DNA from: Compostimonas suwonensis
Lineage (GTDB): Bacteria; Actinomycetota; Actinomycetes; Actinomycetales; Microbacteriaceae
Assembly: GCF_002797855.1 (NCBI RefSeq)
Contig: NZ_PGFB01000004.1
Span: 1-64,000 of the forward strand
Length of the DNA: 64,000 nt
Direction of reading: 5' to 3'
Of the stretch, positions 427 through 3,181 are shown one piece after another; the stretch's first letter is position 1, and each line of letters starts with the position of its first letter. The position numbers and the translations under genes are program-made. A model generated the notes under the pieces. It had not been told where the DNA came from, made no database searches, and worked only from the letters and a program-made list of their open reading frames with translations.

Positions 427-1731
427 TCACTCGATGAAGACGCCGGCGAGAGTCTTCTTCCCGCGCCGGAGGACGGCCATCGCGGCATCCGGAACCGTCT
501 CGGCGAGAGTCTGCGTCTCGCTCTGCACCTTGACGTTGTCGAGGTAGACGCCACCCTCCGCGATCGACCGACGAGCAGCGCTCAGACTCGGACTCAGTCC
601 GGTGTCGACGAGGAGCTGCGCGAGGGTCGTGGTCGGTGGAGTCGTCGTGTTGGGGAGCTCACGGAGAGCGGCCTCGAGCGTGCGCGGGTCGAGCGACTCG
701 AGATCGCCCTGCCCGAAGAGCGCCTGCGCGGCTGCTATCGCGGCATCCGTCGCCGCTCGCCCGTGCACGAGGCTCGTCACCTCGTCGGCGAGCACTCTCT
801 GGGCCTCGCGCTTGAACGGCTGCTCCGCCACGACGGACTCGAGCCTCTCGATCTCCTCCCTGCTCAGGAAGCTGAAGACCTTGAGCCGCGGGATGACGTC
901 GCCGTCGTCGGTGTTGAGCCAGAACTGGTAGAAGGCGTACGGACTCGTCATCTCCGGGTCGAGCCAGATCGCGTTGCCCTCGCTCTTGCCGAACTTGGTG
1001 CCGTCGGAGTTCGTGATGAGCGGCGTGCCGATGGCGTGCGCACTCCCCCGTTCGACGCGATGGATGAGGTCGGTGCCGCTCGTGAGGTTTCCCCACTGAT
1101 CGGAGCCGCCGGTCTGCAGGGTGCAGCCGTACGTCCGGTAGAGCTCGAGGAAGTCGTAGCCCTGCAGGATCTGGTAGCTGAACTCGGTGTAGCTGATACC
1201 CGCTTCGGAGTTGAGCCTCGCGCTCACGGCATCCTTTTTGAGCATCGTGCCGACCCGGTAGTGCTTGCCGACGTCTCGCAGGAAGTCGATCGCGCTGAGG
1301 GATGCCGTCCAGTCGAGGTTGTTGACCATCCGTGCGGCGTTGTCGCCCTCGAAGCTGAGGTAGTTCTCCACCTGCCCCCGCAGACGGTTCACCCAGTCGG
1401 CGACGACGTCTTTGGTGTTGAGGGTGCGTTCGGCGGAGGGCCGCGGATCGCCGATGAGGCCTGTCGAGCCGCCGACGAGGCCCAGGGGCTTGTGCCCCGC
1501 CAGCTGGAGCCGCCGCATGACGAGGAGCTGAACGAGATTGCCGAGATGCAGGCTCGGCGCCGTGGGGTCGAAGCCGCAGTAGAAGGTGATGGGCTCTCCG
1601 GACAGCACCCGCTGCAGCTCGACCTCGTCGGTCGAGACGTGGACGAGGCCCCGCCACTGGAGCTCTTCCCAGACGGAGGGGAAGCTCGGATCGTTGTGCT
1701 GGATGCTGAGGTTTTCGCTGGTGCCGGACAC
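427..1731 (-). CDS. tyrS: Tyrosyl-tRNA synthetase
   Basis: Charges tRNA-Tyr with tyrosine in the cytoplasm. Class I synthetase: the HIGH-type signature appears as HLGN near residue 62, the KMSKS loop as KFGKS near residue 245, and an S4 RNA-binding domain closes the C-terminus. With the GTG at 1731 the protein is 434 aa, normal for bacterial TyrRS. An in-frame GTG at 1776 would add 15 residues, but its only AGGA abuts the codon. The 1731 start is preferred because TACGGT (1739-1744) sits 7 nt upstream, the spacing of a leaderless promoter. The gene lies just upstream of the rRNA operon on the same strand. Confidence 0.95.
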   Translation of the reverse strand: MSGTSENLSIQHNDPSFPSVWEELQWRGLVHVSTDEVELQRVLSGEPITFYCGFDPTAPSLHLGNLVQLLVMRRLQLAGHKPLGLVGGSTGLIGDPRPSAERTLNTKDVVADWVNRLRGQVENYLSFEGDNAARMVNNLDWTASLSAIDFLRDVGKHYRVGTMLKKDAVSARLNSEAGISYTEFSYQILQGYDFLELYRTYGCTLQTGGSDQWGNLTSGTDLIHRVERGSAHAIGTPLITNSDGTKFGKSEGNAIWLDPEMTSPYAFYQFWLNTDDGDVIPRLKVFSFLSREEIERLESVVAEQPFKREAQRVLADEVTSLVHGRAATDAAIAAAQALFGQGDLESLDPRTLEAALRELPNTTTPPTTTLAQLLVDTGLSPSLSAARRSIAEGGVYLDNVKVQSETQTLAETVPDAAMAVLRRGKKTLAGVFIE

Positions 1732-1816
1732 GTCGTCTACCGTACCAAGCCGAGGAAGCCTGCGACTGCCATCCACTCCTCACCCTGCCCTCACCCTGTT
1801 CTCCTTCCGCGCGGTA

Positions 1817-1890
1817 AAGCCTGAGGGGTTGATACTGTTATTATCAATGCTTTAGGCTTGATGTGTGAAGTAACAAGCTCAAAGGCTTGT
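1817..1890 (+). promoter_or_regulatory. Nested dyad operator upstream of the SatD-like gene
   Basis: Two concentric inverted repeats share one centre at 1838: AAGCCT (1817-1822) pairs with AGGCTT (1854-1859), and TTGATA (1829-1834) pairs with TATCAA (1842-1847). The gaps are symmetrical, 6 nt on each side and 7 nt in the middle. A -10-like TATTAT (1839-1844) lies inside. A second dyad, ACAAGC-TCAAAG-GCTTGT (1873-1890), follows 13 nt later and reuses the AGGCTTG half-site (1854-1860 and 1884-1890). This looks like a cooperative operator. The HTH-bearing SatD-like product downstream is the obvious candidate ligand, which is inference. Confidence 0.6.
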
Positions 1891-1910
1891 CATGACGAAA
1901 GGAAAGCCCA

Positions 1911-2597
1911 GTGCTCGTGATCACCGCAGACCAGGTGCGCAGCAGGCACAACGCCGACGAGGCCGGAGCGGCCGTCGAGACGATCAACGGGCGGTACGGC
2001 TCGGCGCTCCCCCTTCCGGTCGACCGCACGGCAGGCGACGAGATCCAGCTCATCGCGCCGTCGGGCGAGATCGCGCTCGAGGTGATCCTCCTGCTCGCCC
2101 GATCGGGGCACTGGTCGATCGGCCTGGGCGCCGGCCAGGTGCTCACGCCCCTGCCGGAGGCGACACGGGAAGCCACCGGATCCGCTTTCATCTCCGCACG
2201 CGACGCCGTCGGCCGCGCGAAGAAGGCCACCCTGCGCTTCGCGGTCGACACGGACACCTCCGGCATCCTGCCCGGCACCGGCACCGGCACCGGCACCGGC
2301 ACCGGGCAGGATGCCGCTCCAGCGGCCGGCTCCGCCGCCGACACCGTCGAGGCGCTCATGAACCTGCTCCTGTTCATCCGCTCACGCAGGACCCCGGAAG
2401 GGTGGGAGCTGTTCGATCTCGTCGCGGCGGGCGCGACGCAGCGGGCCGCGGCATCCGAGCTCGGAATCACCCCCCAGGCCGCGAGCGCACGGGCATCGGC
2501 GGCGGGGATCAGATTCGACCTCGCGGCGCAGCCATCGCTTGTTAGGCTGCTGGACGAACTCGATCGGCTGTCGACAAGCGAGGAAACCACTTCATGA
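1911..2597 (+). CDS. SatD-like protein with C-terminal helix-turn-helix
   Basis: 228 aa, GTG start with AAAGGAAAG about 6 nt upstream. The N-terminus (MLVITADQVRSR) and the overall plan resemble SatD-family proteins, whose function is not established. The C-terminal third carries a probable HTH (roughly residues 180-202, QRAAASELGITPQAASARA) typical of DNA-binding regulators. Between the two lies a Gly-Thr repeat linker (about residues 122-131) encoded by a perfect 6-nt tandem repeat. The stop overlaps the next start (ATGA at 2594-2597), so the two genes are translationally coupled. It probably controls its own promoter through the nested operator. The SatD assignment rests on recognised similarity only. 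Confidence 0.65.
   Translation: MLVITADQVRSRHNADEAGAAVETINGRYGSALPLPVDRTAGDEIQLIAPSGEIALEVILLLARSGHWSIGLGAGQVLTPLPEATREATGSAFISARDAVGRAKKATLRFAVDTDTSGILPGTGTGTGTGTGQDAAPAAGSAADTVEALMNLLLFIRSRRTPEGWELFDLVAAGATQRAAASELGITPQAASARASAAGIRFDLAAQPSLVRLLDELDRLSTSEETTS
2274..2303 (+). repeat. Hexanucleotide tandem repeat (GGCACC)x5 inside the SatD-like gene
   Basis: Five perfect copies of a 6-bp unit encode (Gly-Thr)5. The unit is a multiple of three, so gain or loss of copies changes linker length but never the frame. Confidence 0.95.
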
Positions 2598-3181
2598 CGC
2601 ATTCGTTCCTCCTCGCCCCGCTGCTGCTCGAGGGCGGCGTGCTCATGCTCGCCGCCGCGGCCCTGCTGCTCGCGGTGCTCGCCGTCTGGCTCGGCAAGCA
2701 CACGCTCATCGCCTCCTCGGCCGCCTCACTGGCGCTCGCGATCGGCTTCGCCTGCCTGCCCAACCCGACCCCCGGCCCCGGCTACGCCATCGTGCTCGGC
2801 GCGATCACCCTCGCCCTCGCGGTCGTCGGCGGCGCCCCCGCCGCCACCTGGATCCTGAGCCTCGCGACCAAGGGCAGTGTCACAGCGGGTCTGCACGGCG
2901 GCATCGTCGTCGACGACGACTCGCGAACGGGCGTCACGACGGCACCCCACGAGGTCTTGCGCGGCGGGCTGATGATCGGTCTGCTGGAGCGGGCAGCAAT
3001 CGCGGGCACGATCCTGGCCGGTTTCCCGGAGGGGATCGCCGTCGTCGTGGCCGTCAAAGGTGTCGGCCGGTTCACCGAGCTCGCGGCTGCGGAGGCCCGG
3101 GAGCGGTTCATCATCGGCACCCTCGCGAGCATCGGCTGGGCCTGCGCGAGCGCGATCCTCGTGCGCCTGATGACGGCATAA
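2594..3181 (+). CDS. Integral membrane protein, DUF3307-like, paired with the SatD-like gene
   Basis: 195 aa, overlapping the upstream SatD-like stop by 4 nt. It has about five to six hydrophobic segments: three closely spaced in residues 5-95 and two in the C-terminal part. The C-terminal block (GLLERAAIAGTILAG, then a VKGVGRF segment, then ERFIIGTLASIGWA) resembles the C-terminal half of DUF3307 membrane proteins, which occur next to satD-type genes in other phyla. No enzymatic motif is visible. The function of the pair is unknown. Coupling and the shared operator suggest the soluble partner regulates or senses through this membrane protein. Confidence 0.6.
   Translation: MTHSFLLAPLLLEGGVLMLAAAALLLAVLAVWLGKHTLIASSAASLALAIGFACLPNPTPGPGYAIVLGAITLALAVVGGAPAATWILSLATKGSVTAGLHGGIVVDDDSRTGVTTAPHEVLRGGLMIGLLERAAIAGTILAGFPEGIAVVVAVKGVGRFTELAAAEARERFIIGTLASIGWACASAILVRLMTA

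Follow-up and report, generated by a model that had tools for sequence, protein, structure and literature searches.

A tandem array of palindromes, probably bound by the SatD-like protein encoded next to it, precedes the gene of that protein and a coupled membrane-protein gene in Compostimonas suwonensis

Results

The SatD-like gene and its surroundings

The window, which is the whole stretch of 64,000 nucleotides of Compostimonas suwonensis DNA that was analysed, carries on its plus strand a gene with a GTG start (1911..2597) that codes for a SatD-like protein of 228 amino acids. The open reading frame, profile comparisons and a structure model divide this protein into a predicted palm-fold domain (residues ~1-114) and a helix-turn-helix (HTH). 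The next gene on the same strand (2594..3181) codes for a membrane protein of 195 amino acids, referred to here as the partner; it overlaps the SatD-like gene by an ATGA and is translationally coupled to it. Upstream of the pair, a ribosome-binding-site-like AAAGGAAAG could be read off the sequence at 1898..1906 (plus strand). The divergent neighbour is tyrS (427..1776, minus strand), a part of the context outside the system, which was upstream and divergent in 103 of the 112 loci of set 1 (see below).

The SatD family (PF16264) is named for the sat operon of Streptococcus mutans. Against the Pfam SatD model the window protein scored 21.7 bits, under the 29-bit gathering cut-off, and in this it differs from the accepted members of the family. 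An alignment of its relatives had 18 of 22 members matching SatD at E<=1 (best 2.6e-7). The hhalign comparison with five SatD proteins from actinobacteria that reach the cut-off gave a probability of 99.5 % and a pairwise E-value of 2.7e-23 over 187 columns, the whole length. The motif D...S[RK]...GDExQ is also present; its D, S and GDE.Q are invariant in the five SatD proteins and near-invariant in 176 relatives. Because the whole-length profile match is to proteins that pass the cut-off, membership of the window protein in the SatD family is supported, as the initial annotation of this DNA had suggested, despite the low Pfam score. The C-terminal HTH that it had noticed in the same product was borne out and is, like the motif and the whole-length match, shared with the family.

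The dyads in the window

The initial annotation had described the DNA before the SatD-like gene as a concentric double-dyad operator followed by a third dyad. The pattern AAGCCT-N6-TTGATA-N7-TATCAA-N6-AGGCTT is found at 1817-1859 with no mismatches, and nothing else in the window comes within three mismatches of it; none of 100 shuffles of the window held the 43-bp pattern at the same tolerance. A repeat search of the window picked up an inverted repeat of 18 nt and, at 1873-1890, the third dyad (ACAAGC/GCTTGT). The dyads are exact and real.

The special concentric design is another matter, since the same region consists of three imperfect 18-bp palindromes that stand in tandem with a period of 29 bp and have no strand. 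Operator 1 (1815..1832, TAAAGCC-N4-GGGTTGA, seen in the repeat search) is 29 bp from operator 2 (1844..1861, with the letters TCAATGCTTTAGGCTTGA), which is in turn 29 bp from operator 3 (1873..1890, ACAAGCTCAAAGGCTTGT), the third dyad of the initial annotation, also seen in the repeat search. Whenever a palindrome is repeated in tandem, a further dyad arises midway between the two copies; the apparent concentric operator is therefore a by-product of the tandem array, and the dyads of the window are better described as a tandem array of 18-bp palindromes with a period of 29.

Conservation of the array among homologous loci

A homolog of the SatD-like gene was present in 188 of the 398 sampled genomes of the window's taxonomic family. 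Set 1 comprised 112 loci, from 110 of these 188 genomes (mostly the best-scoring, with some listed genomes skipped) and from the named contigs L031 and L032, one of them from Agromyces cerinus; the window is among them as L001, and so is at least one pair of loci with equal protein scores (L053, L054). Set 2 comprised 64 loci, namely L158-L219, which are the matches down to E 5e-37 other than L150-L157 (same family) and L134 (already seen), and the plasmid loci L148 and L149. Sixty of its loci came from genomes of other families, two from plasmids and two from the window's family (L158, L159), and three genomes contributed two loci each.

Upstream regions were scanned, with no consensus assumed, for self-similar palindromes repeated at any period from 24 to 33 bp, and each score was compared with those of 40 shuffles. 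In set 1, 94 of the 112 upstream regions exceeded all 40 shuffles, with the best period at 28 (54 loci) or 29 (40 loci). Applied to control stretches, the same free-period scan was positive in 1 of 110 cases for the region 330-220 bp upstream and in 2 of 112 for a stretch within the gene; the periods were 27, 24 and 33, none of them 28 or 29. For set 2, the array scan put 46 of 64 loci above all 40 shuffles, and 44 of these 46 had a period of 28 or 29. An array of this period was thus not found by the scan in 18 of the 112 loci and 20 of the 64.

Elsewhere in the phylum, the Pfam SatD model detected genes in 25 of 396 genomes. We could look for the array at 17 of these 25 loci, as eight were omitted (start unclear, upstream region cut, or not taken), and it was found at 9 of the 17, a further likeness to the SatD family; all nine had 28 as the best of the periods from 26 to 31, and five of the nine came from one genus.

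Distances between half-sites show which element is the repeated unit. Within the 120 bp upstream of the gene in set 1, TTGA and TCAA lay 14 or 15, 28/29, 42 and 56 bp from one another, with counts that greatly exceeded the expectation of 0.1-0.2 for each distance. Across a palindrome (TCAA to TTGA), 63 cases had a spacing of 14 and no more than 3 had 15; between palindromes (TTGA to TCAA) there were 39 cases at 14 and 14 at 15. Since the spacing is nearly always 14 within palindromes and may be 14 or 15 between them, the palindrome is the unit. Reduced to its simplest form, the array repeats a palindrome of 18 bp, TCAAGC-N6-GCTTGA in type, every 28 or 29 bp, with letters that differ among loci. 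Counted by this one consensus in the 112 loci, three copies were found in 41, two in 34, one in 21, none in 14 and more than three in 2; tandem palindromes of two or three copies are thus common.

These distances also bear on a truly concentric operator, in which the inner dyad TTGATA-N7-TATCAA would be the binding unit and the outer arms would take a second dimer. Such an operator would explain why the window has perfect 6-bp arms sharing one centre. It is, however, the spacing across this supposed inner unit that varies, and the outer and inner arms belong to one half-site. The exact 43-bp form, moreover, was not seen in 31 other loci, where the best match had 8 mismatches in 24 fixed positions (13 of these loci, on the minus strand, were searched on the wrong flank). 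We consider this design improbable. What stood up when upstream regions of homologous pairs were compared, as the initial annotation had proposed, was the architecture (94 of 112 and 44 of 64 loci) and not the exact string, which was scored partly on the wrong flank.

Homologs occur on plasmids as well. A plasmid search returned two; the search with one distant SatD protein found none. At L148 (2501-5430), on a plasmid of Tsukamurella tyrosinosolvens, the pair comes with an array of the CTTGC type with period 29, followed by genes for an SPFH-domain protein and NfeD on the opposite strand. A search of viral contigs gave 326 stretches with a pattern match, of which none coded for a relative.

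Covariation of the recognition helix with the half-site

The predicted recognition helix of the HTH (residues 186-196, ITPQAASARAS) is encoded at 2466..2498 on the plus strand, and its residues 188-190 and 193 covary with bases of the half-site, numbered here G1 C2 T3 T4 G5 A6 T7. Tables for set 1 were built from the 87 of 112 loci that had an array at z>=4, dropping the 25 with z<4, and those for set 2 from 44 of 64 loci.

For the 87 loci of set 1, Q189 went with G5 in 58 of 59 cases and P189 with A5 in 6 of 6; G189 went with A5 in 14 of 14 and with A4 in 12 of 14. A189 was an exception, with G5 in five and A5 in three of its eight loci. Serine at position 190 was accompanied by C3 in 9 of 10 loci, compared to T3 in 75 of 77 for A190. 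K193 had G2 in 13 of 17 and C2 in 4 of 17; loci with another residue at 193 mostly had C2. With all 112 loci, the link of residue 189 to base 5 was the strongest (mutual information 0.87, reached in 0 of 200 permutations).

Similar links were seen in set 2 (44 loci): of the 38 loci with Q189, 32 had G5 and 6 had T5, and R188 went with C6 in 20 of 21, R193 with G2 in 3 of 4 and S189 with A5 in 5 of 6. S190 had C3 in only one of two. In the combined 131 loci the main links follow one order, 188 with base 6, 189 with bases 5 and 4, 190 with base 3 and 193 with base 2. Residue 192 scores with base 6 too, probably due to G192 travelling with R188, and bases 5 and 7 score with residue 188 as well.

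Several properties of the procedure affect the reading of these numbers. The site classes were recognised by eye ahead of the covariation test, and the register of set 1 was fixed with a purpose-written filter, while set 2 was scored without that filter. The permutations leave the relatedness of loci in, which is addressed in part by representatives at 75 % identity (69, or 56 with z>=4) and by partial Mantel tests. In these, the correlation of helix 3 with the site given the N-terminal domain was 0.48 for the 87 loci and 0.41 for all 112 (0 of 500 permutations each), and that of the N-terminal domain with the site given helix 3 was -0.07 and -0.03, respectively.

As the half-site letters track the recognition helix of the adjacent protein, the SatD-like protein probably binds the sites of the array; we consider this comparative evidence strong. 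The proposal that the operator is the target of the SatD-like protein thus gains from residue-to-base covariation.

Promoter elements and the direction of regulation

On the plus strand, the right half-site of operator 1 forms a -35-like TTGATA (1829..1834), and a -10-like TAGGCT (1853..1858) is located inside operator 2, behind an 18-bp spacer. TTGATA-N18-TAGGCT is a weak promoter match, and TAGGCT, itself a weak match to the consensus, is missed by a strict scanner; the strict scan of 1777-1915 gave a minus-strand candidate only and none on the plus strand. Over the 112 loci, strict promoters were found on the plus strand in 13 and on the minus strand in 4. The box spacing is what recurs: in the 70 of 112 set 1 loci used for this count, a TA...T box followed the right half of operator 1 at 17 or 18 bp in 34, compared to 3 for the reversed box. 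From the end of operator 3 (as a 20-mer) to the start codon the distance was 8-14 bp in 50 of the 70 loci; in the window it is 19.

Since the -35 and -10 boxes seem to lie within operators 1 and 2, repression is favoured, and negative autoregulation of the SatD-like operon is likely. The half-sites alternate every 14-15 bp, which might instead suit a continuous oligomer that coats them all in place of separate dimers and may act as an activator or a clamp rather than as a simple repressor. The PucR-type regulator MabR, which has a GGDEF-like domain, forms dimers and tetramers (PMC11617747). The position of the operators over the -35-like and -10-like boxes argues against the activator or clamp, however, and we see the oligomer as possible at best.

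The array could also serve tyrS or some other regulator, the SatD-like gene merely adjoining it. The divergent position of tyrS in 103 of the 112 loci would fit this, and so would a promoter-like TTCACA-N18-GATAAT on the minus strand of the window (1840-1869), which faces tyrS and overlaps the operator array. Yet strict minus-strand matches in just 4 of 112 loci mean that any control of tyrS would be local. Arrays at z>=4, moreover, were present in all 9 loci that lack tyrS and in 78 of the 103 that have it. The array therefore accompanies the SatD-like gene, and it is the SatD-like recognition helix that the half-site letters track. We regard service to tyrS or another regulator as very improbable, and autoregulation of the SatD-like operon as the better account.

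Searches of the genome of the window agree with a narrow role. At up to two mismatches the 29-bp array pattern had two matches, only at this locus, and the reversed-pattern control had none; at up to three mismatches there were two overlapping places, again only here, with the reversed control also at two. The 28-bp form had no matches in this genome (control, one). Single palindromes at up to two mismatches numbered 133 compared to 315 in the reversed control, which is no enrichment. A wider regulon was rejected on these grounds, the array being confined to this locus and single palindromes not enriched, and the regulator therefore seems dedicated to its own operon.

The N-terminal domain

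The predicted palm/GGDEF/cyclase-fold domain is encoded at 1911..2252 (plus strand), and model and conservation together place D7, D43 and E44 at a putative metal site. D43 and E44 are kept in 176 of 176 relatives and D7 in 172 of 176, with N in the remaining four. The AlphaFold model, built from 3 sequences, has a mean pLDDT of 58; most ten-residue blocks up to residue 110 are at 65-81, with a dip to 52 at 81-90. Its elements follow the order beta-alpha-beta-beta-alpha-beta-alpha-beta, where the second strand has just two residues.

A Foldseek search with this N-terminal model had no match at E<=0.001; the best row, at E 0.022, was a class III adenylyl cyclase, and the rows near the top included ClcF/muconolactone isomerase (0.032), another ferredoxin-like fold. 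The 50 rows listed by VIA-align held class III cyclases, GGDEF domains, GTP cyclohydrolase III, mCpol and Cas10, at Z 8.6-10.3. The model's elements and these 50 rows agree on a palm fold, with moderate model confidence and weak Foldseek E-values, so a cyclase/GGDEF palm fold, with an apparently intact acidic site, is supported at moderate confidence. The likeness to class III adenylyl cyclases and GGDEF diguanylate cyclases is thus one of predicted fold (Z 8.6-10.3 in the rows listed); the differences are the fusion of the SatD-like domain to an HTH and an identity of 9-22 % in the same rows. AGDEI at residues 41-45 presumably occupies the place of the motif in GGDEF domains. With D327 and E370 as the metal residues of PleD, D7 would correspond to D327 and D43/E44 to E370, the PleD row placing model residue 1 at chain position 321. 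Such a domain may bind, and perhaps convert, a nucleotide with metal.

A sequence search of the PDB with the 22-member profile returned rows for the HTH region only, the best-scoring of them with no significant single stretch, and one distant SatD protein had none at E<=1. At 2274-2306, in the linker between palm and HTH, the window has an in-frame GGCACC repeat (Gly-Thr), whose columns are gapped in 83-107 of the 112 homologs.

The membrane partner

A homolog of the partner gene comes next after the SatD-like gene in 111 of the 112 set 1 loci, with the 4-bp overlap in 61. Partner relatives were found in 56 of the 64 set 2 loci and, with the profile of the window's family, in 17 of the 25 Pfam-SatD loci on the same strand as SatD, another likeness to the SatD family. 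This profile also found frames beside SatD in L123 and L133; no partner relative was found with it in L113-L117, L129, L136 and L137. The coupled membrane protein of the initial annotation was borne out.

The initial annotation had also called the partner DUF3307-like, which turned out to apply to one part of it. The partner of the window matched no Pfam family at E<=10, and so lacks the DUF3307 domain (PF11750) itself. Its C-terminal module (2951..3154, plus strand; EVLRGG..IG.LER, KGVGRF.EL, ERFIIGT..S..W), defined by conservation and profile comparison, is common to the partners of other SatD genes (97.5 %, E 6.5e-12) and occurs in the DUF3307 protein adjoining SatD in L130 (95.5 %, E 1.5e-8, 65 columns), all hhalign E-values in these comparisons being pairwise and uncorrected for a database. 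The DUF3307 domain of the L130 protein was confirmed. Three other DUF3307 proteins did not match the partner (probability 0.2 %). The module is therefore shared with SatD-linked DUF3307 proteins, unlike the domain that names them. The structure model of the partner was poor (mean pLDDT 52.7) and was used for the helix count alone; from charge and hydropathy, the conserved loops would face the cytosol.

The four relatives with N at position 7 (L149, L213, L215 and L217) are loci where neither a partner nor a 28/29-bp array was found, a hint that the acidic site may be coupled to the partner. These copies were not taken to prove that the metal site depends on the partner, given their limited origins and four loci with D7 for which no partner was found either. 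In the latter (L206, L210, L214 and L216) both D7 and the array are retained, and the available DNA showed no partner, so the array is independent of the partner. For the genomes of L206, L210 and L214 (G1090, G611 and G881), a second match is listed ~1.3 kb away. Three of the four D7N loci are from one family and the fourth is from an Arthrobacter plasmid; three of the four copies also carry G42E. A second copy that has D7 and comes with a partner is present in the genomes of L213, L215 and L217 (L219, L218 and L200, respectively); two of these second copies have an array.

Discussion

SatD has been associated with acid tolerance, and in S. pyogenes it is described as essential, an accessory gene of that kind (PMC11323703, PMC10326533). 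Among the open-access matches listed, none described a DNA-binding role of SatD, an array or a code, and none covered the biochemistry of SatD or the function of DUF3307. The fusion of a GGDEF-type fold to a C-terminal HTH in a transcription factor is itself already known from PucR/CdaR-type regulators (MabR, Rv2242), which resemble the window protein in this respect (PMC11617747). The GGDEF-like domain of MabR lacks the catalytic motif, with HGTWL at the A site, whereas SatD-like proteins nearly always have GDExQ; MabR also has a globin-like N-domain, and the parts describing it name no membrane partner (PMC11617747). The PucR/CdaR domains PF17853 and PF13556 were not among the four Pfam families that the window protein matched at E<=10. 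A term search of PMC2447327 gave no passage on HTH fusions.

A phage defence system that combines a cyclase with a membrane effector (Pycsar, Panoptes) was considered and rejected: PADLOC (2023 library) had no model at E<=1 for the SatD-like protein or the partner, and synteny with tyrS is steady (103 of 112 loci).

Comparison of loci and genomes brought out the array, its uniqueness in its own genome, the residue-to-base covariation and the linkage of the partner. With these in hand, we think it quite probable that the SatD-like protein is a one-component autorepressor acting on three palindromes, with the nucleotide state or the membrane partner setting its DNA binding. The C-terminal HTH, probably as a dimer, would bind each 18-bp palindrome between tyrS and its own start codon, one dimer per palindrome. 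The core promoter seemingly lies within the array, the -35 box in operator 1 and the -10 box in operator 2, so that a filled array would shut the operon off; this is why we infer repression over activation. The N-terminal palm domain may bind, and perhaps convert, a nucleotide with metal, the nucleotide being the presumed ligand. DNA binding would then be set by the nucleotide state or by contact with the co-translated membrane partner, which may act as input or as output.

A bolder version, which we hold only tentatively and think rather doubtful, has SatD as a nucleotidyl transferase that is enzyme and repressor at once. The palm would make or break a nucleotide signal that tunes the HTH, catalysis or product binding altering its grip on the array, and the C-terminal module of the partner would be the receptor or the input. 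If true, this would amount to a second-messenger circuit in one operon, across actinobacteria and perhaps in all SatD-bearing bacteria.

With the autorepressor as the preferred reading, the widespread SatD family gains a concrete candidate role, that of a DNA-binding autoregulator. The apparent residue-to-base code is colinear and would predict sites from protein sequence. Finally, a predicted cyclase/GGDEF-fold domain with an apparently intact acidic site would be tied to a dedicated membrane partner.
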